The notes under the pieces were generated by a model. The model was given only the letters and a program-made list of their open reading frames with translations. It was not told the origin of the DNA and searched no databases. Shown piece by piece: positions 2,353-25,901 of a DNA stretch of 36,064 nucleotides (positions are counted from its first letter, which is position 1; each line of letters begins with the position of its first letter). The DNA is from Candidatus Iainarchaeum sp. (GTDB lineage Archaea; Iainarchaeota; Iainarchaeia; JAGGVJ01), in the NCBI GenBank assembly GCA_021158055.1, contig JAGGVJ010000039.1, positions 1 to 36,064 on the forward strand, given 5' to 3'. A program made the position numbers and the translations under genes.

Positions 2353-3054
2353 CCCGCTCCATTCATCGAAAAATTCCTGAAGAAATGATTCCATGAATTT
2401 GTGCCTTTCTTTAGCCATGTTTTTTGCTGTTTCTGTATGCATGTTTTCCTTTAATTTCAGGAGTTTGCTGTGGAAATGATGTATTGTCGAGGGGTTGTTT
2501 TCGGATTCCTCGTATGTGTGCCTGTCAAAGGGTTTTTTAGGATTCCACATTGTGACATTGTTTGCCCCCCAAAGAAAAAGTCCTGCTTATTCCAATTGCT
2601 CCGATCGTATCCAGATTGTCGGCATCCTGCAGAATCATGGTTTCAAGGTCATTTACGGTTTTTCCATTTTCTGAAAAACTGTATTCCTCGTGATATTCAA
2701 TGCAATGGGTGATTTTTTCTTTTTGCTTTTCTGTCAAGTTTGTCTTATCAAGGATTTCCTTGACTTTTGGCAGGGAATCTTTTGGAGAGCAGAATTTTCC
2801 GGTTTCTTTTTGGATGATTCTGTGGATGTCATGCAGGAATGCAGAAACCCCAATAACTGCTTTGTCTCTGCCTTCTTTGCTTTGAAGAGCCAGGGCATTT
2901 TTAAAGTGCGCTTTAAGTGGTACATGTCGTGACCGCTGGGGTCTTCATGAAAAAGCTCTTTGACTTTTTCTTCAAGCTGGTTGATTGTTTTTTCTATAAA
3001 TATATGTAAATGAATTGAGATTAAGAATGTTTTGTTCTCTTTTTGAAGCCACAT
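2344..3054 (-). pseudogene. HD-domain phosphohydrolase gene broken by two frameshifts
   Basis: Three successive minus-strand frames together give one HD-superfamily hydrolase. Frame one carries GHDMYHLKR. After a shift at an A5 run near 2890 the protein continues as NALALQSKEGRDKAV and the HD dyad FLHDIHR, then HEEYSFS and ILQDADNLDTIGAIGI. After a second shift in a G6 run near 2570 it continues with MWNPKKPFD to the stop. Adding one A restores the first junction; losing one G (or gaining two) restores the second. Both shifts are in homopolymers, so either the gene is decaying or the sequence has two errors. An intact product would be a metal-dependent nucleotide-type phosphohydrolase. Confidence 0.75.
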
Positions 3055-3135
3055 TTAAGAATTGAATATAATTCCCGCAATTTTATGAAGTTCAATGATG
3101 CCGAAGGCAAAAAATCAAAGTTTTCGTGCCTGAAT

Positions 3136-4299
3136 TTAAATTAGGGGAGCCTTTGCCGTCGATTTATCCAATTGCTTTTCCTGGATAATTGATTTTAGTT
3201 CGCTTACGATGTGATTTATCAGCTCTTTTGATTTTATTTCGTTTATCTTTTTTCTAGGGTTCCAGTCTATTCCGGGCCTGTCGTTTCCTTCAATAAAATA
3301 TAAGTTGCCGTTATTGCTCCGGATAAAATCCAAAGAGTATATGGCGTGTTTTAAATCCAGTTTTTTGTTTAAATTTTTAATTATTTTCCTGGCCATGGTC
3401 AGAACGTCTTTGGGAATTGTGTTTATGGGCATATAGACTAGATTTCCCCCTTGTTGTTCATTGCATTTAAAATTCCCTTCTTTGGCAATTCTGATATAAG
3501 TCTGTATAATTTTTTGGTTTAGCATAATTATTCTCAAATCAATTAGCCCGCTGTATTTTCCAAAAACAAAGCCATTGTCGCAGTTAATGAATGGTTGAAT
3601 TATGTAAGGCGATGTTTTTCTGTTCTCTACGCCCGATTCATAAAGTTTTTTGTTTTCTTCAAAGTCAAATTCATCAAAATTTACTTTGAATATGTTGAAA
3701 CCGCCCACGCCTGTTTTGTCTTTTATTATATAATCGTCACTAAAATCAACGTTATGCCTGTGCTTTTTTAATAATTTATCCAGTTTGGTTTTAGCCTGGA
3801 TTATTTTTTGTTTTGAAAGGTTGGTTATTTCAACTGTCGGTATTGCAAATTCCTTAAACTGTTTATAGGTGTTTATTTTATTCTGGAAAACATTTTTTAT
3901 TTTTTTATTATTAAACATATAAGTGGATTTGGAAGATGTGAGCAATTTTAATTTATTTTTTTGTTTGCTATTGACGGAGGTGAATTTATCGAAAAAGACC
4001 TGCGAGTGCGCTTTGCCATTATTTTTAACCCATTTTTTATCATATGTCCAAAAACTCTGAAAAAGACCTGACCCGATAATGTCTTTGGATGTTGCAAAAG
4101 CGGCCTTAATGCCCATTTTTTTGCAGATCAATAAAAAATAACGATAACTATCATTGTAAATTACGCTGCTGCCAGTGGATGAAAACGGAGATTTTCCCCT
4201 ATATTGTTTGTCTCCAGCACTATTTGCGCTGGGTTTCGCGTAAACTACAATTGCATCATACTGTTGTGTGTTAACGTGCTGTTTTATTTTAATATCCAT
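3136..4299 (-). CDS. ATP-grasp ligase, RimK-like (stand-alone, AT-rich)
   Basis: The 387-residue product has the ATP-grasp layout: a nucleotide-binding stretch YIIKDKTGVGGFNIFKV, a linker strand YIIQPFI, a catalytic core IDLRIIML with QQGGN, and the metal-binding end LYFIEGNDRPGIDWNP. Such enzymes join a carboxylate to an amine through an acyl-phosphate; the substrate is unknown. The N-terminal third is variable. I chose ATG 4299, about 20 nt after a TATA-like TTTATATG, over longer in-frame starts (4308 is possible). Composition is strikingly Lys/Asn/Ile-rich compared with genes downstream, which suggests acquisition. It lies one pseudogene and two tRNAs away from two other ATP-grasp genes. 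Confidence 0.8.
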   Translation of the reverse strand: MDIKIKQHVNTQQYDAIVVYAKPSANSAGDKQYRGKSPFSSTGSSVIYNDSYRYFLLICKKMGIKAAFATSKDIIGSGLFQSFWTYDKKWVKNNGKAHSQVFFDKFTSVNSKQKNKLKLLTSSKSTYMFNNKKIKNVFQNKINTYKQFKEFAIPTVEITNLSKQKIIQAKTKLDKLLKKHRHNVDFSDDYIIKDKTGVGGFNIFKVNFDEFDFEENKKLYESGVENRKTSPYIIQPFINCDNGFVFGKYSGLIDLRIIMLNQKIIQTYIRIAKEGNFKCNEQQGGNLVYMPINTIPKDVLTMARKIIKNLNKKLDLKHAIYSLDFIRSNNGNLYFIEGNDRPGIDWNPRKKINEIKSKELINHIVSELKSIIQEKQLDKSTAKAPLI

Positions 4300-4482
4300 A
4301 TTTATCATAATGCATATAAAGAGTTTTGAATAACCTTTTTTGTAAGTTGACTTGGTTTTTTGTTGTTTTTGTCTTGCACATAATTTCTGCAATCAACTGA
4401 AATCCAAGCAGTAGGTACGGGTTTGGACAGAGCGGGGTGCAACGCAGTGAAGCGAGAGCATAACGTGATTGAAGCGAAGAAG

Positions 4483-4737
4483 TTAATTTTTAAATCCGTT
4501 ATGTAACTTAAGAACTTTGCCTTTTAAAACACCGTGGTTTATTTTGATTTTATTTCCGCTCATCTGATTCAATGCGTTTACGTCAATATTCATTTTATCA
4601 GGCAATTTGGCACCGCACACTATTCTTTTTATTCCCGCTCTCCACGCGGCAGAAAAACACAGGGGCAGGGGGTCGCGGTTGTATAGAGCGTGCAGTCCGG
4701 GATTTTCACGGCATTTAATTTTTTGCAGGTTAAGTAT
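4483..4737 (-). pseudogene. decayed C-terminal fragment of a deaminase-like protein
   Basis: An open minus-strand frame of 84 codons with no plausible start resembles the zinc-binding half of cytidine/guanine/tRNA deaminases: LYNRDPLPLCFSAAWRAGI followed by KRIVCGA, against the family pattern LYTs-EPCPMC-A--wAgI-RivyGa. The first zinc Cys of PCxxC is Leu here, and the N-terminal HAE segment is missing, replaced by a stop at 4738-4740. It therefore cannot be an active deaminase as it stands. It may be a remnant, or the tail of a gene disrupted upstream. The assignment rests on a short motif. Confidence 0.5.
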
Positions 4738-4854
4738 TTAAATATAATTTTTATTTTTGTATCCAGAAGACTTAACAACTCATAATTTTGATAGATTTAA
4801 ATAGTTTTTTATCATTATAATAATATTCTTATTGTGTTTTTTATTGTATTTTTC

Positions 4855-4932
4855 GCTCCCTTAGTCTAGTCCGGCCAAGGATACTGCCCTTTCGAGGCAG
4901 CGACGTGGGTTCAAATCCCGCAGGGAGCACCA
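4855..4932 (+). tRNA. tRNA-Glu (UUC anticodon), CCA encoded
   Basis: The acceptor stem GCTCCCT/AGGGAGC, the anticodon arm CTGCC-CTTTCGA-GGCAG and the T arm GTGGG-TTCAAAT-CCCGC fold as a standard tRNA. The anticodon TTC reads Glu codons. The discriminator is A at 4929 and CCA is encoded at 4930-4932. There is no intron. The next tRNA begins 7 nt later, so the two are probably cotranscribed. Confidence 0.93.
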
Positions 4933-4939
4933 TTAATTT

Positions 4940-5055
4940 GTGGGGGTCGCCTAGCCTGGTATGGCGCTAGCCTGCTATAAAGTTTTTTTGAAATGCAGTG
5001 TTTTGCAGAAAGCTAGTGTCTTTTAGACACGTGGGTTCGAATCCCACCCCTCACG
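4940..5055 (+). tRNA. tRNA-Ser (GCU anticodon) with a 33-nt intron
   Basis: Acceptor stem GTGGGGG/CCCTCAC, T arm GTGGG-TTCGAAT-CCCAC and a long variable arm (GTGTC/GACAC) mark a class II tRNA with anticodon GCT. The discriminator G fits serine. The anticodon stem CTAGC/GCTAG is interrupted by an intron at 4978-5010, at the usual position after nucleotide 37. The bulge-helix-bulge is clear: CTGC (4972-4975) pairs with GCAG in the intron, and the 3-nt bulges TAT and AAA are cut after their second base. CCA is not encoded. Confidence 0.92.
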
Positions 5056-5168
5056 CTTATTTTTTTTGAAATTTGTTTTTTGTTGTTGCGGATTCACGTG
5101 CTCGAAAAAATAAATGTTTTTTGCAACTTACAGAAAGATAAATATGTTATTGAACACACATTGTTTTC

Positions 5169-6791
5169 ATGCAGACTGAAGCAGAGATTTTTCTTGGCAC
5201 AAAAAGCCGCAAACTCTTGTTTGACGCAGAAGAAGTGGACGCAGCAGAGCTTCAGAGGCTTTTTGAGTCGCAGGGATTCGTGACAAAGTTCAGTGAAAAC
5301 CGCGGGAGTGAGCCGTTGCAGGGTCATGCCGGGCTGGCCAGAAAACTGTTTTTGGAGTCAGTTGCTTTTTTTTCAAAGACAAACAGCGTTGATGAACTGC
5401 CTTTTTTCGGGGATCATTTTGCAGTATTTGAACTCCCTGAAGAACTGGGTGGAAAGCGTGTTTTTTTTGCCTGTGACCCTGAAATTTGCGAGTGGGAAAA
5501 GCCGGTTGAAGTTGCTTTCAAAGTGTTTGAAAAAGTTGCGAAACTAAGAAAAATCAGGTTTGAAAACGGGCTTTTTGTGGGAATAACTTCAGGCAAAAAA
5601 ACAAGGAACAATGCTTCTTTTGGAATTCCGTCCGGGGGGTGGCACAAGTATTTTTGTGATTTCGGGGAAAAGGAATCCCTGCAGATATCAAAAAAACTTA
5701 TCTGGGGAATAAACAATTTTTTTGACCTTGCATACATCCGCTCTGATTTTCTTGACTGCAGCCCAAGTTTCCTCAATGTTTTTGCAGACTTGGTTCTTTT
5801 GGGGTTTTACCCGAAAGAAAGGTTGCCTGTGTTTTTTTTAAATGAAAAAAAGCTTGCCTCGCTTCCGGTTGCGTTTGGCGTTGTAAGCCACGAAGTCGAG
5901 CATTATCTGGCTGAGACATCTGGCTGGAAGAAAAACTACATTCAGGCAAGGGAAAAAATTGACTGGGACAAGAAACTTGCGCATTTTTTCAGGCACGAAT
6001 TTTACGAAAAAAACAAGGCAAAGCTTCGCGCGACTTTTTTAAAGTGGCTTAACAAAATTTTTTACGAAGTGGTAACAGATGCAAACCTGTACCTCAACGC
6101 AGTCGGTTCAGATTCAAAATGCAATGTTTTGTTGTGCCGGGACAGGGAAAAATCATGGGATTTCCGCATGAAAGTGTTTGAAAAGTTTGTCAGGCGGGGT
6201 GCGGAAAAAGACGATTATATTGTTTATTTTCTTTTTTCATATTACCCATATCTTCTTTCCCTTTACGTTGTCGAGAACAAGATCCCCGGGGAAAAATTCA
6301 AGGCAGCAGAAAACAGGCTGCTTGAGCAATCAAAAGATATTGCGCCTGGGTTTTCGGAATTCAACGCGTTCATGAAAAAAAAATCAATTGAACTTTACAG
6401 CAGGTTCCTGTTAGGAGAGGATCTTTCCCAAGACGTTGACGAGGTTTTGGCCAGAGTAATAGCTTTTTATTTTTCAGTTAACAGGGAGCAGATAAATTCA
6501 ATAGTTATGGAAAAGCACAAATCCGGGCAGTTTGGCAGCTGTGAAGTCGGCAAGACAGTTAATGAAATAGTTCTTTCAAGCAGGATAATTTCATTGAAAA
6601 AAAAACCCAATCATTTCCAGTTTTTGTTTGAGCGGCGCGGAAGAAAGTTTTACAGGTTCACGACTGAAAGAGTGGAAAAAGCATTGAATGATTTCACGCG
6701 CGAAAGACACGGGGCTGTTGCACGCAAGGGGCAAGAGACTGTTGCACGCGAGAGATGCGAAACTGTTTTGGAGGGAGACCAGCTTGGCTGA
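5169..6791 (+). CDS. zincin-like metallopeptidase, unknown family
   Basis: The 540-residue protein carries HEVEH at residues 241-245 inside a helix (GVVSHEVEHYLAE), and about 60 residues later FYEVVTDANLYL. HExxH plus a downstream E-x2-TD is the arrangement of gluzincin-type zinc peptidases, so zinc-dependent proteolysis is the likely activity. I do not recognise the family. There is no signal peptide, so it should be cytosolic. The ATG is about 27 nt after a TATA-like ATAAATATG, so it is probably leaderless. The C-terminus ends in three 8-residue repeats (RERHGAVA, RKGQETVA, RERCETVL). Its last 8 nt overlap the TTG start of an ATP-grasp gene, so the two form an operon. Confidence 0.7.
   Translation: MQTEAEIFLGTKSRKLLFDAEEVDAAELQRLFESQGFVTKFSENRGSEPLQGHAGLARKLFLESVAFFSKTNSVDELPFFGDHFAVFELPEELGGKRVFFACDPEICEWEKPVEVAFKVFEKVAKLRKIRFENGLFVGITSGKKTRNNASFGIPSGGWHKYFCDFGEKESLQISKKLIWGINNFFDLAYIRSDFLDCSPSFLNVFADLVLLGFYPKERLPVFFLNEKKLASLPVAFGVVSHEVEHYLAETSGWKKNYIQAREKIDWDKKLAHFFRHEFYEKNKAKLRATFLKWLNKIFYEVVTDANLYLNAVGSDSKCNVLLCRDREKSWDFRMKVFEKFVRRGAEKDDYIVYFLFSYYPYLLSLYVVENKIPGEKFKAAENRLLEQSKDIAPGFSEFNAFMKKKSIELYSRFLLGEDLSQDVDEVLARVIAFYFSVNREQINSIVMEKHKSGQFGSCEVGKTVNEIVLSSRIISLKKKPNHFQFLFERRGRKFYRFTTERVEKALNDFTRERHGAVARKGQETVARERCETVLEGDQLG
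6698..6772 (+). repeat. in-frame tandem repeat (24 nt, three copies) at the C-terminus
   Basis: Three imperfect 24-nt units encode RERHGAVA, RKGQETVA and RERCETVL near the end of the zincin-like protein. The shared core in the DNA is CTGTTGCACGC in the first two units. The repeat sits just before the TTG start of the overlapping ATP-grasp gene. It is probably a recent slippage product. Confidence 0.6.
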
Positions 6792-7785
6792 TTCAGTTGC
6801 CTTTGTTTACCGCCAGCTTGTGAGCTGGGAGGACCGGACTCCTTTTTCAAAGGAAAGTTCAGATAAGGCACTGGAGCTTTTTTCTCAAGTTGCTGAAATG
6901 CATTCAGTTAAGGTTTTCATCTGCCACTTTGACTGGATTGAAAAAGACACCTTAAAGAAAGCGTGGTGTTTTGAAGATTCGAAGTGGAAGAGGGTTTTTA
7001 ACGTGAAAGTTGACCTGCTCTACCAAAAGTTTGGGTTTAGGGAAGAGACAAGGAAAATAAAAGAAATACTTTCAAAACACTTCAATGTTGTGAATTCCCT
7101 GGAAATGGAAGAGGTGTGCAGGGACAAGTTTGCAACCCACAAGATGTTTTTTGATTACATGAAGCCCTGCTTTTTGGTTAAAAACAGTGATGACATCAAA
7201 AGCGTTCTTGAGGAAATACGCGGCGATCTTGTGGTGCTAAAGCCGAGGTACGGGTTTGCAGGCAGGGACGTGAAAGTTGTCCCGGCAGAGTTTCCTTTGC
7301 TTGTTCAACTGCTTGGCGGGTCAAAAGACGATATGCTTCTTGAAGAATTCATTGATTCCTCAAGGGGAGTCGAATGCCTTGGGATAAGCGGGGTCCACGA
7401 CCTTCGCGTGGTGGTTGTGGATAGCGTCATTGCAGTCTCTTATGCGAGGTTTCCAAAATCAGGTCTTGTGAGCAACGTCGCAAAAGGCGGGGAACTAAGG
7501 GTGCTTGATGTTGGAAAACTTCCGAAAAGCGTTGTGTGGATGGTTGCGGGAGTCGACCTGAAGCTCAAGAAGTTCGGGCTGAATGCCTACACCGTTGACT
7601 TCGTGTTTGATGCAAACCAGCAGCCATGGATTATTGAGCTGAACTGCCAGCCTGACTTTGAATTCAGCGATGACGAGGAAAAGAAGATGGAAACAGAGCA
7701 TTTTGGAGTTATGTGCGCGCAGTTCAAACGCTACCAAGTTCAAAAGAAGCAAGGGATAAAAGAGGAAATGAAGAAAAACAGGTAA
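6784..7785 (+). CDS. ATP-grasp ligase coupled to the zincin-like gene
   Basis: From TTG 6784 this is a 333-residue ATP-grasp protein: LVVLKPRYGFAGRDVKVV (nucleotide-binding strand and glycine loop), LLEEFIDSS, HDLRVVVVDS, NVAKGGELR, and the metal-binding end YTVDFVFDANQQPWIIELN. Such enzymes form amide or peptide bonds via acyl-phosphate. A longer frame opens at 6688, but its extra residues merely mirror the repeat of the upstream gene in another frame. GGAGGG just upstream of 6784 and the 8-nt overlap favour the short form. Translation is probably coupled to the zincin gene, so ligase and peptidase may act on the same product. Confidence 0.82.
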   Translation: MADSVAFVYRQLVSWEDRTPFSKESSDKALELFSQVAEMHSVKVFICHFDWIEKDTLKKAWCFEDSKWKRVFNVKVDLLYQKFGFREETRKIKEILSKHFNVVNSLEMEEVCRDKFATHKMFFDYMKPCFLVKNSDDIKSVLEEIRGDLVVLKPRYGFAGRDVKVVPAEFPLLVQLLGGSKDDMLLEEFIDSSRGVECLGISGVHDLRVVVVDSVIAVSYARFPKSGLVSNVAKGGELRVLDVGKLPKSVVWMVAGVDLKLKKFGLNAYTVDFVFDANQQPWIIELNCQPDFEFSDDEEKKMETEHFGVMCAQFKRYQVQKKQGIKEEMKKNR

Positions 7786-7805
7786 ACTAAAAAAATAAAG
7801 GAAAG

Positions 7806-8648
7806 CTACATTTTTGAAACAAAGCTTTTGGTAACTGCTATCGGAATTTCCGGGCTGGCTTCGGTCAGGTAAGAACTGTATTCAAACTGCACTGCCTGCC
7901 CGCGGGTTTTTTCAAGAAGTTCTTTTACAAGTGTTTTAACTGTTTTGCCGTTGAATTTGTGCTCAAAGGTTATTTCAAGAGGGCTTGAGCTGAACGCTTT
8001 TTTTATAGCTTCAAGGTAGCATGCAAAATCCCCTGACTCAATATACTTTTCAACCAGTTTTGCTTCTTTTTCAAAGCCCTTGCTTTTCAGGTTATTGATG
8101 TCTTTTTGAATGCTGTCTTCTTCAAGGTGATTGTAAAAAAATTTTGCGCAATAGCAGGCATAGTCGCAAAAGCCATGTCTTTGGGCTTTTATTTCTTCTG
8201 AAAACTCGCTGTTTACCTGCTTTGTCAACCTTTCGGCTTTTTTTGCATCAATGCCGATTCCTTCAATTGAACCAATGTCGATTATTGTGGGCAGCACAGA
8301 CAGTTTTGTCACAAGGTTGTGGACAAACACATATTTCGGGTTTTGTTGCTGCAAACCGGTTTTTTCAACTTCGCTCCAGAACCCGTTGTAAATGCCTTTT
8401 AACTCGTCTGTTTTTGAACCGGAATACTCGCTTAATCGGTAGTGGTTGAAATGCCAGCGGTTGTAGCGCGGAAAGCTTGAGATGATTGCTTTTCCCCCGC
8501 TCCTGCACAAGTTGTAAGCAATCGCTTCTGTTCCAATGTCCCCTCTGATGTGTTTTTTCAGCGAAGTTGCAGAGTGGGCGGCGACATAAACAGGGCCGGG
8601 TTTTTCAGAATCAAAGATCATAAATCCTTTTTTTATTTCCACTTTCAT
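7806..8648 (-). CDS. possible amidohydrolase (N-formylglutamate amidohydrolase-like?)
   Basis: The 280-residue product contains VYVAAHSATSLKKHIRGDIG near the N-terminus, then SSFPRYNRWHFNHYR, and ends with AVQFEYSSYLTE. The order of an N-terminal His-Ser, an Arg/Asp segment and a late QxEx strand recalls N-formylglutamate amidohydrolase-type zinc enzymes, but the match is weak and I hold it as a hypothesis. The start is ATG 8648, just after a TATA-like TTTATATT; a longer frame to 8711 would overlap the upstream gene's end. It follows the RimK-like gene by 40 nt on the same strand, and may remove or process what the ligase adds. Confidence 0.6.
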   Translation of the reverse strand: MKVEIKKGFMIFDSEKPGPVYVAAHSATSLKKHIRGDIGTEAIAYNLCRSGGKAIISSFPRYNRWHFNHYRLSEYSGSKTDELKGIYNGFWSEVEKTGLQQQNPKYVFVHNLVTKLSVLPTIIDIGSIEGIGIDAKKAERLTKQVNSEFSEEIKAQRHGFCDYACYCAKFFYNHLEEDSIQKDINNLKSKGFEKEAKLVEKYIESGDFACYLEAIKKAFSSSPLEITFEHKFNGKTVKTLVKELLEKTRGQAVQFEYSSYLTEASPEIPIAVTKSFVSKM

Positions 8649-8688
8649 GATTAATATAAACGGTTTGTTAAATAAAAATTTGCCGAAA

Positions 8689-9540
8689 TTATTTTTTTGC
8701 GTTTCTTTCAAGGAAATTGACTATTGCTTCCGCGGGGTTTATGCCGGTTGTTTTTGAAAAGTCCCGAAACTGCGGCGCCCTGTTGACTTCAACCACCATG
8801 AACCCGTTTGGAGATTCAAGCAAGTCAACTCCGGCGACCTGAAAGTCCAGTGCTTTAACCGCTTTTATCGCAAGCTCTTCTGCCTCTAAAGGCGCTTCGC
8901 ATGCTTTTCCTTTTCCTCCAAGCGCAATGTTTGAGCGGAAATCACCTTCGGGAACAAACCGGTACATTGACCCTATGACCTGGTTGTCCACTATGAAAAG
9001 CCGCATGTCGCGTCCCGGGTTCTGGATGAATGTCTGGACATAAATTTCTTCTTCCTTTGGAACAAATTCCCGCAGTTCAACCTCGTTTTCGGTTTTGACT
9101 ACCCCGCGCCCTTTCGCGCCGATAACAGGTTTTATTACCGCGGGATAGCTTGTCAGTTCAACAGTGTGGTCTGCAAGTTCCGCTCCAAAACCGTAAATTG
9201 TCCGGGGGGTTGGTATTTTGTGCTGCAAAAGCACAAAAGTGTGAACTGCCTTGTTGTCAAGCTTGTAAACCTCGGGTTTTTCAAAAACAGGAATGTGTTT
9301 GTTTTTAAGGTGTTGGGTGATGATGTAAGCAAGGTTTTTCCACCTTCCGACACCGCGCACGAGCGCAACGTCAGGCAGTTTGTATTTTTTTCCGCTGTAA
9401 TAAACATATGGCTTGTCTGAAAAGTCAATCAAAAACCTGTTGAAGTAACGAAACCGCACTTCGTGTCCGCGTCTGAGAGCTTCAGTCATAATCTCGCGGT
9501 TTTCCCAGCTTTTGCTTGCGCCGATAATCCATATTAACAT
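8689..9540 (-). CDS. RimK/LysX-like ATP-grasp ligase
   Basis: The 283-residue protein has a complete RimK-type ATP-grasp core: YPAVIKPVIGAKGRGVV (nucleotide loop), YVQTFIQNPGRDMRLFIV, RSNIALGGKG, and VAGVDLLESPNGFMVVEVNRAPQFRDF (metal-binding Glu and Asn). Relatives add glutamate or other amino acids to a C-terminus or to cofactors and carrier proteins; the substrate here is unknown. ATG 9540 begins MLIWIIGASKSWENREI, a normal first strand, and lies about 27-30 nt from a TTAATTAA element, so it is probably leaderless; an in-frame ATG at 9564 is less likely. It is upstream of the possible amidohydrolase on the same strand. Confidence 0.87.
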   Translation of the reverse strand: MLIWIIGASKSWENREIMTEALRRGHEVRFRYFNRFLIDFSDKPYVYYSGKKYKLPDVALVRGVGRWKNLAYIITQHLKNKHIPVFEKPEVYKLDNKAVHTFVLLQHKIPTPRTIYGFGAELADHTVELTSYPAVIKPVIGAKGRGVVKTENEVELREFVPKEEEIYVQTFIQNPGRDMRLFIVDNQVIGSMYRFVPEGDFRSNIALGGKGKACEAPLEAEELAIKAVKALDFQVAGVDLLESPNGFMVVEVNRAPQFRDFSKTTGINPAEAIVNFLERNAKK

Positions 9541-9617
9541 GAATGAAACTAAGTTCAGGATCATTAATTAATGTTTTGAGCATGTCCTTTTTTGAAAAAG
9601 AAACGCCTGAAAAAAAG

Positions 9618-9692
9618 TAGCGGGGGGTCGATTTGAACGACCGGCTTTCGGGTTATGAGCCCGACGGGCACTCCAGGCTGCCCTACCCCGCT
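9618..9692 (-). tRNA. initiator tRNA-Met (CAU)
   Basis: The minus strand reads AGCGGGG...CCCCGCT with anticodon loop CTCATAA. The anticodon stem has three consecutive G-C pairs (GGG/CCC) next to the loop, and the acceptor stem begins with an A-T pair. These are the marks of the archaeal initiator. There is no intron and CCA is not encoded. Confidence 0.93.
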
Positions 9693-11850: not shown

Positions 11851-12522
11851 TTATTTTTTATTTAACAGCTCTTCATCTGCCCAGTGGTCTTTGTTTCCAC
11901 GCACATATAGCCAAAAAAATTGTTCGGGATAAATTTGTTTAAAAATATCAACTTTTTTCTCAAAAATGTCTTTGCTAAAAGAGATTCTTTGGTCTGATTC
12001 AAAATTTCCATAATTTTTCTTGTTTTCTCTTGACCAAAAATAAGGATATTCTTTGTAATATTTAGTTGCTATGCCCTCTAATAGCATAGAAACAAGAGAA
12101 TGCATGGGATGTTTTATTCCCATGGGGGCGATAATCTCTGTTTTTTTAGTAATATTTGATTTCACTTCTTTCAGCAAATCATTTGCTGTTTTCGAATCAG
12201 TATTGCAGTCTTCAAAAATTTTTGTCAAAAGCTCTTTTTTGTAGGTTGCATTTGTTTTGAAACCGTATTTTTCCCGCAACTCTTTTCTTTTTGTCTTCAC
12301 CCAGTTGATATCTACAAAATTAAGAAAAGTAACTTTTTTTACATTCTCTATTATTTCAGATAATTTTTCTGATGTAGATTTATTGCATGGGCTACTTGAA
12401 CAAGTGATTATTTCAAAATTTATTTTCGGGTGAGATAGAATGTATCCTCCCAAATTAAGCCAAGCATCATCTGGATGCGGTTCAATAATTACAATTTCTT
12501 TTTTCTCTTTGGATTCACCCAT
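11851..12522 (-). CDS. PIG-L/LmbE-family deacetylase
   Basis: The 223-residue protein opens with IVIIEPHPDDAWLNLGG, the zinc-binding PHPDD motif of PIG-L (N-acetylglucosaminyl deacetylase) enzymes, and has a later HPMHS that would supply the third ligand. The family removes acetyl groups from GlcNAc conjugates in glycolipid, mycothiol-like thiol or antibiotic pathways; the substrate here is unknown. It is cytosolic and Lys/Asn-rich, more AT-biased than its neighbours, which suggests transfer. It stands alone between a tRNA and a gene remnant. Confidence 0.85.
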   Translation of the reverse strand: MGESKEKKEIVIIEPHPDDAWLNLGGYILSHPKINFEIITCSSSPCNKSTSEKLSEIIENVKKVTFLNFVDINWVKTKRKELREKYGFKTNATYKKELLTKIFEDCNTDSKTANDLLKEVKSNITKKTEIIAPMGIKHPMHSLVSMLLEGIATKYYKEYPYFWSRENKKNYGNFESDQRISFSKDIFEKKVDIFKQIYPEQFFWLYVRGNKDHWADEELLNKK

Positions 12523-21728: not shown

Positions 21729-23000
21729 ATCCAGTACATAGACCTTGGTTACCAGCCTACAAAAAACGACTTAATCTGTGAATACACTTTTGAATCCGGA
21801 CTCTCCCCGGAAGATGCAGCTTCAAGGCTTGCCGGCGAGTCATCCATAGGCACGTGGACTGAAATATCCACCATGAAACCGGGGATTGCGAAAAAACTTG
21901 CACCGCACGTGTTTTTTATTGATAAAAAGACAAAGACTGTGAGAATCGCGTATCCTGAAGAGCTTTTTGAACAGGGCAACATGCCGCAGATACTCAGCAG
22001 CATTGCAGGAAACATTTTCGGCATGAAAGCAGTGGACAATCTTCGTTTGCAGGATATTGATTTTCCTTCTTTGGTAATAAAATCGTTTAAGGGGCCGAAG
22101 TTTGGAATAAAAGGGATAAGAAAGTTCATGTCAGTGAAAAACAGGCCGTTTGTCGGGACAATAGTCAAACCAAAAGTCGGGCTGAATGAAACAGAACACG
22201 CCAAAGTGGCTTTTGATGCATGGACAGGTGGCTGTGACATAGTAAAAGACGACGAGAACCTCACTTCAATGACGTTCAATAATTTTGAGGACAGGGTGAT
22301 AAAAACCCTTGAAGCAAGGGACCGCGCGCAGCAAGAAACCGGTGAGAAAAAAGCATACATGCCGAATGTTACTGCCGAGACAGGCGAGATGATTAAAAGA
22401 GCCGAGTTTGTCAGGGAACACGGCGGCCGCTATGCAATGATTGACATAATAACAAGCGGTTTTTCCGGGCTCCAGTCGCTTCGGGAAGCAGACCTTGGCC
22501 TTGCAATCCACGCCCACCGCGCCATGTACGCGGCACTTTCAAGGAACCCAAAGCACGGCGTAAGCATGCTTGTAATTGCAAAGATTGCGAGAATAGTTGG
22601 GGTTGACCAGCTGCACATAGGGACTATTATCGGGAAAATGCACGGCGGTGCCGGTGAAGTGAAATCAATTCAAGATGCTGTTGAAAAACAAAAAATAAGC
22701 GCCGGCTCAAAGATTTCGTCGCACGTGCTTGGGCAAGATTGGGGTGATACAAACACTGTTTTGGCGGTTTCTTCGGGGGGATTGCACCCTGGACACATTT
22801 CAAAACTGGTTGAACTCATGGGCTCTGACGTGGTAATCCAGCTTGGTGGCGGAATACACGGTCACCCGGACGGGACATTTGCCGGTGCGAAAGCCGCGAG
22901 GGATGCGATTAACGCAAGCGTTTCAGGAGTTTCATTGGAAGAAGCTTCAAAGCAGTCAACAGAGCTTGCGGCAGCCATAAAAAAATGGGGCGTTGTGTGA
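21729..23000 (+). CDS. rbcL: form III RuBisCO large subunit, probable ATC start
   Basis: The archaeal RuBisCO fixes CO2 on ribulose-1,5-bisphosphate from nucleotide (AMP) breakdown. Translated from ATC 21729 it is 423 residues, normal for form III, and begins with the family block YIDLGYQPTKNDLICEYTF; the first ATG, at 21873, would delete about 48 conserved residues including GTWT. Key sites: GTIVKPKVGL (catalytic Lys about 147), GGCDIVKDDENL (carbamylated Lys about 173 with the metal acids), loop 6 IIGKMHG, SSGGLHPGH and GGGIHGHPDGT. GGTG (21720-21723) is 5 nt before ATC, the spacing used throughout this window. The XTP pyrophosphatase gene follows directly. Confidence 0.93.
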   Translation: MQYIDLGYQPTKNDLICEYTFESGLSPEDAASRLAGESSIGTWTEISTMKPGIAKKLAPHVFFIDKKTKTVRIAYPEELFEQGNMPQILSSIAGNIFGMKAVDNLRLQDIDFPSLVIKSFKGPKFGIKGIRKFMSVKNRPFVGTIVKPKVGLNETEHAKVAFDAWTGGCDIVKDDENLTSMTFNNFEDRVIKTLEARDRAQQETGEKKAYMPNVTAETGEMIKRAEFVREHGGRYAMIDIITSGFSGLQSLREADLGLAIHAHRAMYAALSRNPKHGVSMLVIAKIARIVGVDQLHIGTIIGKMHGGAGEVKSIQDAVEKQKISAGSKISSHVLGQDWGDTNTVLAVSSGGLHPGHISKLVELMGSDVVIQLGGGIHGHPDGTFAGAKAARDAINASVSGVSLEEASKQSTELAAAIKKWGVV

Positions 23001-24833: not shown

Positions 24834-25901
24834 TTGGAATCAATAGTTAAAGAAGCATTGAGTAAAGAAGTTTCTGTAGACAAATACGCTGAAGAATTCG
24901 GCGTTCCAAAGATTCGGGTTATCGGTTGCGGTGGAGCAGGAAACAACACTATTAACCGGCTTGCAAAACTTGGTGTTTCAGGCGCGGAACTTATTGCAAT
25001 AAACACTGACAAGCAACATCTTTCAATTATTGATGAGTCAATCAAGAAAGTGCTTATCGGAAAAAGCATTACAAGGGGGCTTGGAGCAGGTGGTTATCCT
25101 GAAATGGGTGCAAAGTCAGCTGAAGTTTCAAGAGCATCTCTTGAAGAAGCGCTTTCTGACACCGATATGCTTTTCCTGTGCGCCGGAATGGGTGGGGGAA
25201 CCGGAACAGGTTCTGCACCTGTTGTTGCAGAAATTGCAAAAGAACAAGGCGCAATAGTAATCGGGATGGTTACTTATCCGTTTGCGCTTGAGCGTGCAAG
25301 GCTTTCAAAAGCCGACGACGGGTTAAAGGCTTTGTCTGAAGTCGCTGACACGGTGATTGTCATTGATAACAACAGGCTTGTTCACCTTGTGCCGAACCTT
25401 CCCATGAATCAGGCGTTTGCGGTTGCGGATGAGGTTATTTCAAGAGCAGTCAGGGGAATAACTGAAACCATTACCCAGCCGTCACTCATAAACCTTGATT
25501 ATGCGGACGTTCGTTCTGTCATGAGCAACGCAGGGCTTTCAATGATTGCCGTGGGTGAAGCAAAAGGCGTCAATAGGGTTGAAGAAGCAGCACAGTCCAC
25601 AATGGAAAACGCTTTGCTTGATGTCGACTGGAAAGGCGCAAAAGGCGCGTTGATTCACATAACCGGTGGGCAGGATCTTACGCTCGGTGAAGCAAATGAC
25701 CTTGGAGAACTCGTAACCGGTGACGTTGACTCGGCAGCAAGTGTTATCTGGGGCGCGAGAATTTCCCCGATGTTTGAAGGAAAAATTGAAGTTATTGCAA
25801 TCATGACCGGGGTTACAGGCGCCCACATTTCAGGACCTGTGTCAAAAGGAATGGATGGCTCAAAAGGCGGCCATGACCTTGGAATTGATTTCATAAAGTA
25901 A
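24834..25901 (+). CDS. ftsZ: cell division GTPase FtsZ
   Basis: The 355-residue protein has the FtsZ nucleotide motif GGGTGTG (residues 120-126), the N-terminal [15 protein letters not shown], and the T7 loop [11 protein letters not shown] that completes the GTPase site of the next subunit. It polymerises into the division ring. TTG 24834 is 5 nt after GGTG. The C-terminal extension after the core is short. It is monocistronic, with a hairpin terminator after its stop. Confidence 0.97.

Follow-up and report, generated by a model that had tools for sequence, protein, structure and literature searches.

Why should an archaeal genome of only 1.15 Mb (completeness 94.9%) encode three ATP-grasp ligases side by side with two candidate hydrolases? 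This question is raised by a stretch of 36,064 nucleotides from Candidatus Iainarchaeum sp., contig C42 of this genome, which is referred to as the window. Our analysis suggests that the block of these genes between two tRNA genes belongs to a modular system for ligation and hydrolysis in archaea which is of the Rim/Rlo kind, i. e. a glutamylation-type system with interchangeable erasers, and in our judgement the chances that this reading is correct are evenly balanced. The ATP-grasp ligases (writers) would attach single residues of glutamate or of a different amino acid in succession to a free carboxylate, with the C-terminal tail of a protein as the most likely acceptor and a small carrier as the less likely one, and the hydrolases encoded beside them (erasers) would remove these residues again. 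Depending on the lineage, the eraser would be a RimB-like retropepsin, an amidohydrolase with the fold of the N-formylglutamate amidohydrolases (FGases), a MATCAP carboxypeptidase or an M29-like peptidase. In the genome studied here, RimB and a tandem RimK pair on a second contig (C16) would form the core, and the window would provide extra ligases and extra candidate erasers.

The hydrolase and ligase families

The gene for which the earlier note had guessed an FGase-like product belongs to a family that is real and has previously been unannotated: no model for it exists in Pfam or NCBIfam. The window protein and a relative with 28% identity at locus L085 seeded a profile that detected the family in 32 of the 156 genomes of a second phylum (that of genome G090). 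In the window's class, the window copy stands alone besides two chance partial matches, and none of the 301 genomes of a third phylum yielded a member in a search that had no positive control. The alignment of 31 sequences (A6) contains the invariant residues H25, R61, W91, H110, D124, T227 and E256 and the motif PHSGPALE...SRD..SDTVASLCW...PR....GIDFNR, and the true FGases of related genomes (alignment A2) carry H, D..GT, R..VDxNR, H and E in the identical order. The Pfam model of the FGases (PF05013) did not match the window copy, the best of the 31 members reached an E value of 0.018, and the comparison of the two family profiles was not significant (E = 0.03). An AlphaFold (AF2) model built from the 31 sequences had a predicted local distance difference test score (pLDDT) of 91.4 and a predicted template modelling score (pTM) of 0.89; an earlier model from two sequences (pLDDT 41) was discarded. 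In Foldseek, the model retrieved the N-formylglutamate amidohydrolases 2odf and 2q7s with a probability of about 1.00, a TM score of about 0.5 and a best E value of 2.5e-3. Because the model is confident and the structural match is of this quality, the assignment of the family to the FGase fold is good but moderate, and the predicted fold thus agrees with the initial guess. Hemagglutinin and alpha/beta-hydrolase structures from the PDB were dismissed as chance matches, with E values above 0.02 or low TM scores combined with high root-mean-square deviations. The window copy carries A24, A27, H66, N68 and Y70 at positions where its relatives mostly have P, G, G, D and N, and has N-H-Y-R instead of the D-x-N-R motif of the FGases. 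Judging from these residues, this copy may have lost its activity or acquired another specificity.

All three ligases exceed the Pfam RimK cut-off of 21 bits (Table 1), in line with the three ATP-grasp cores described in the earlier note. The magnesium ligand pattern D..E-x-N is present in each of them; it is invariant in the alignment of ligase 2 (A3; D272, E285 and N287) and retained in that of ligase 1 (A4). Ligase 3 is a member of the RimK family placed outside the clades of the tandem pairs, and scores 191 bits with the model of RimK family alpha-L-glutamate ligases (TIGR00768) versus a subfamily cut-off of 143.4 bits, which ligases 1 and 2 do not reach. The latter two are distant paralogues (23% identity, E = 2e-12) that form one clade (support 0.997) and match the ATPgrasp_ST, GSH-S and RimK models with similar strength. 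A profile check for unrelated known pathways left all three ligases far below the cut-offs of the equivalog models that they match (LysX, MptN, CofF, GshB and S6 ligase), and since these cut-offs were not reached, the known cofactor pathways were rejected. The gene of ligase 1 has a GC content of 31-33% versus about 42% nearby, and its product shares 68% identity with that of a gene from another phylum (L088) versus 38% with a relative from the same class (L056 in genome G055). From the low GC content and this pattern of identities, the gene was probably acquired horizontally.

The HExxH protein contains HEVEH at residues 241-245 and E300-x-x-x-D304, a gluzincin-like arrangement. Relatives were found neither in Pfam, NCBIfam and the PDB nor in 55 genomes of the class, viral contigs and plasmids, and the 156 genomes of the second phylum gave only a chance match of 55 residues in a frame with a stop codon. 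Since relatives are lacking and an HExxH motif occurs in 1.6% of the shuffles of this sequence, we treat the protein as a hypothetical zincin; of the original claim, the motif stands. The protein was also considered as a divergent MATCAP (PF08014). Profile-profile comparison and shuffle-controlled scoring with hidden Markov models gave nothing, there was no match to the MATCAP model, and instead of the MATCAP pattern HExxxH...EEG the protein has HExxH and no EEG. The C-terminal end of its open reading frame (6700-6770) contains an imperfect short repeat (VARKGQETVARERCETV).

Neighbourhoods in relatives and the second locus

Ligase and hydrolase genes recur together in relatives, which supports the earlier note, and this holds for the amidohydrolase family, MATCAP and the FGases alike. 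ATP-grasp genes made up 32/174 of the genes up to three genes from a member of the amidohydrolase family versus 5/130 of the more distant genes of these loci (p = 6e-5, Fisher test); the corresponding counts for MATCAP were 16/102 versus 5/131 (p = 0.002). The association of ligases and hydrolases is real but loose. The amidohydrolase family adjoins tandem RimK-like ligases, MscS-like membrane proteins (PF00924), RimB-like genes (PF05618) and GCS2 ligases, and is encoded near MATCAP at L127 and L145. In genome G217 (L085), the gene order is amidohydrolase-like gene, another ATP-grasp gene and a relative of ligase 2. RimB-like genes flank tandem RimK pairs both in Iainarchaeota and in the second phylum, where relatives of ligase 2 occur in about 11 and relatives of ligase 1 in two of the 156 genomes.

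Among the 93 Iainarchaeota genomes, MATCAP is present in 17 and a PF05013 FGase in four. Family f15 combines, in varying sets, a RimB-like gene, two RimK-like ligases, one or two MATCAPs and an M29-like peptidase, sometimes with ligase 2. In genomes G055 and G058, the FGase gene directly follows ATP-grasp genes; the gene that comes next in G055 is convergent and encodes a relative of ligase 1. Relatives of ligase 2 occur in two genomes of the class, beside MATCAP and M29, and a genome-wide scan for them returned only these two known loci (L051/L054 in genomes G066 and G069); there, a true MATCAP gene lies directly upstream of the ligase gene, i. e. in the position of the HExxH gene of the window. 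As separate observations, two MATCAP genes in tandem follow the RimK-like pair at L040 and L042 (G028, G078), and membrane or C39-peptidase-like proteins open the tandem ATP-grasp operons at L076-L080 and L056 (MscS-type helices with Peptidase_C39 at L076, C39 at L056).

The genome of the window (G000) itself contains a second locus. On contig C16 (16136-18239; 8137-10240 of L150), a gene for a RimB-like retropepsin (PF05618, 37 bits, DTGA) precedes two RimK-like ATP-grasp genes, the second of which was detected by a pooled ATP-grasp profile and not by Pfam. A RimB-like gene beside a RimK-like ligase is thus found at C16 and not in the block of the window. The C16 ligase 'a' clusters with those 'a' ligases of the second phylum whose genes occur alongside the amidohydrolase family (support 0.998). 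Both halves of a set that other genomes keep together in one place are therefore present in this genome, and the genes of the window and of C16 may work together.

The five open reading frames named in the earlier note are present. Its placement of the last four genes between two tRNA genes was borne out, for the left one (read as Ser by eye) by Rfam and for the right one (tRNA-Met) by ARAGORN; the left tRNA gene was not called by ARAGORN. The block bounded by these tRNA genes (4940-9692) consists of two convergent pairs, the HExxH gene followed by ligase 2 on the plus strand and ligase 3 followed by the amidohydrolase-like gene on the minus strand. The stop codon of the HExxH gene lies at 6789-6791, and the 8-nt overlap with the gene of ligase 2 is real given a TTG start at 6784. 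The gene of ligase 1 lies outside of this block in AT-rich DNA. The GC content from 2500 to 4500 is 31-37%, with tRNA genes to the right; this may be a recent insertion. Elsewhere in the window, a divergent PIG-L-like deacetylase below the Pfam cut-off is encoded directly past tRNA-Leu (11851-12522), and Pfam identifies the genes of the RuBisCO large subunit (21873-23000) and of FtsZ (24834-25901).

Table 1. Genes of the ligase/hydrolase region and adjacent tRNA genes
Feature	Position	Strand	Basis
ATP-grasp ligase 1 (TTL/RimK-like group)	3136..4311	-	Pfam ATPgrasp_ST 41 bits, RimK PF08443 33.2 bits
tRNA-Glu	4855-4932		ARAGORN
Intron-containing tRNA, read as Ser by eye; left block border	4940..5055	+	Rfam RF00005 43.3 bits
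Orphan 540-aa HExxH protein, putative gluzincin	5169..6791	+	Motif only
ATP-grasp ligase 2 (TTL/RimK-like)	6784..7785	+	RimK PF08443 37.3 bits, TTL 22.5 bits
FGase-fold amidohydrolase-like protein	7806..8648	-	Predicted fold; family without Pfam/NCBIfam model
RimK-family ATP-grasp ligase 3; encoded upstream of its partner 7806-8648	8689..9564	-	RimK PF08443 133.6 bits
tRNA-Met; right block border	9617..9692	-	ARAGORN

Which explanation fits the genes?

FGases hydrolyse the amide of N-acyl glutamate. RimB removes the glutamates that RimK has added to RpsF (PMC11957791). On tubulin, the tyrosine and polyglutamate that TTL/TTLL ligases attach are taken off by metallocarboxypeptidases of the MATCAP family (TMCP; PMC10499314). 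From these activities, the recurring partners of the ligases therefore share a plausible chemistry, amide hydrolysis at an added glutamate, and a writer/eraser module with interchangeable erasers would be the most economical reading of the neighbourhoods. We infer the reaction, its glutamate specificity and its reversal, as the earlier note did for the addition and removal of amino acids by the cluster. Several points weigh against this idea. No substrate gene or peptide was identified, and cofactors and metabolites, too, are products of RimK-like ligases. The linkage is loose: at about one third of its loci, the amidohydrolase gene is more than three genes away from any ATP-grasp gene, the whole set is common to no two lineages, and MATCAP is absent from the genome of the window. 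Moreover, the p values for the enrichment are optimistic, their independence being overstated because the loci are phylogenetically related. Finally, D68 and G66 are each conserved in all 30 relatives of the window amidohydrolase, which has N and H, respectively, and the loop in question (residues 63-72) is poorly modelled.

GCS2 carboxylate-amine ligases are recurrent neighbours, too, both of ligase 2 relatives (L083, L084) and of the amidohydrolase family (L138, with a similar neighbour at L141), and a small-molecule pathway is therefore the main rival. Here, the ligases would add successive amino acids to a non-ribosomal peptide-like metabolite or cofactor resembling glutathione, F420 or a capsule peptide, and the hydrolases would trim precursors. 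The similarly strong matches of ligases 1 and 2 to the ATPgrasp_ST, GSH-S and RimK models fit this possibility. However, neither a carrier protein nor enzymes for cysteine or sugars were seen to recur among the neighbours, whereas RimB-like proteases do, and these are peptide-specific in Pseudomonas; we therefore consider a metabolite possible, if on the unlikely side. The five genes might also be unrelated and have become neighbours by chance in a variable region, as the tRNA genes at the borders of the block are common integration sites. The AT-rich gene of ligase 1 with its close relative in another phylum, the orphan HExxH protein and the absence of the complete set of five genes from every other genome seen are consistent with this, and for the same reasons the claim of one five-gene system was not sustained. 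Chance does not readily account for the pairs that recur in distant genomes, i. e. ligase 2 with the amidohydrolase family (L085), a relative of ligase 1 with an FGase (L056) and ligase 2 with MATCAP (L051/L054), so that this explanation appears rather doubtful. It is tempting to think of a prokaryotic tyrosination-type cycle as well, in which ligase 2 and the zincin would act like TTL and MATCAP on a cytoskeletal tail such as that of FtsZ, which is encoded on the same contig (24834-25901). Ligase 2 and its relative at L004 score above the Pfam cut-off for TTL, and the ligase of L051/L054 is directly preceded by a true MATCAP gene. Yet, the putative zincin of the window shows no homology to MATCAP, ftsZ is 17 kb distant, and the TTL matches are weaker than those to RimK and ATPgrasp_ST, which makes such a cycle highly improbable. 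The FtsZ protein ends in ...DFIK.

A glutamylation-type module with interchangeable erasers may point to something broader: a general cycle of C-terminal glutamylation (or of a tyrosination-like modification) with ligases of the RimK/TTL type and swappable erasers, among them the undescribed FGase-fold peptidase family and archaeal MATCAPs, by which prokaryotes would mark other proteins in the manner of the tubulin tail code. We regard this generalization as unlikely. The module itself would use eraser families that are not known in that role; a survey of ATP-grasp neighbourhoods by Iyer et al. from 2009 may already describe parts of the ligase-hydrolase association. If the proposed module is real, reversible tagging with amino acids by ATP-grasp ligases would be common among archaea with reduced genomes, the erasers would include families not known in that role, one of them without a Pfam or NCBIfam entry, and there would be concrete candidates for tests of how the writer/eraser pairs TTL/MATCAP and RimK/RimB relate. 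At present, these are a set of genome-context predictions.

Relation to known ligase-hydrolase systems

In the rimABK system of Pseudomonas (PMC11957791, PMC10092738), a RimK-family ligase is encoded with the protease that removes the added glutamates, the retropepsin RimB, and a RimB-like gene followed by tandem RimK-like ligases is the arrangement at C16 and in relatives. Unlike this system, the block of the window lacks RimB, its ligases are not equivalogs of the S6 ligase, and RimB is supplemented or replaced by hydrolases with the FGase fold or of the MATCAP and M29 types. The rlo operon of Pseudomonas (PMC12239564) likewise unites a ligase (the ATP-grasp protein RloC), a retropepsin (RloA) and a membrane protein (RloB), and an MscS-like membrane protein is encoded beside the ligases at many archaeal loci; in contrast to rlo, no inactive transglutaminase was seen among the archaeal neighbours examined. 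From the FGases of PF05013, the amidohydrolase family differs in the missing Pfam match, in the profile comparison given above and, for the window copy, in the lost Asp, but it shares with them the predicted fold and a motif of H, D, R, D-x-N-R, H and E in collinear order, and the neighbourhood of the true FGases in G055 and G058 is similar. The tubulin system of TTL/TTLL and MATCAP/TMCP (PMC10499314), finally, has its eraser in a family that the genome of the window lacks, but it too pairs an ATP-grasp writer with a metallocarboxypeptidase eraser, and in Iainarchaeota MATCAP genes adjoin relatives of ligase 2.

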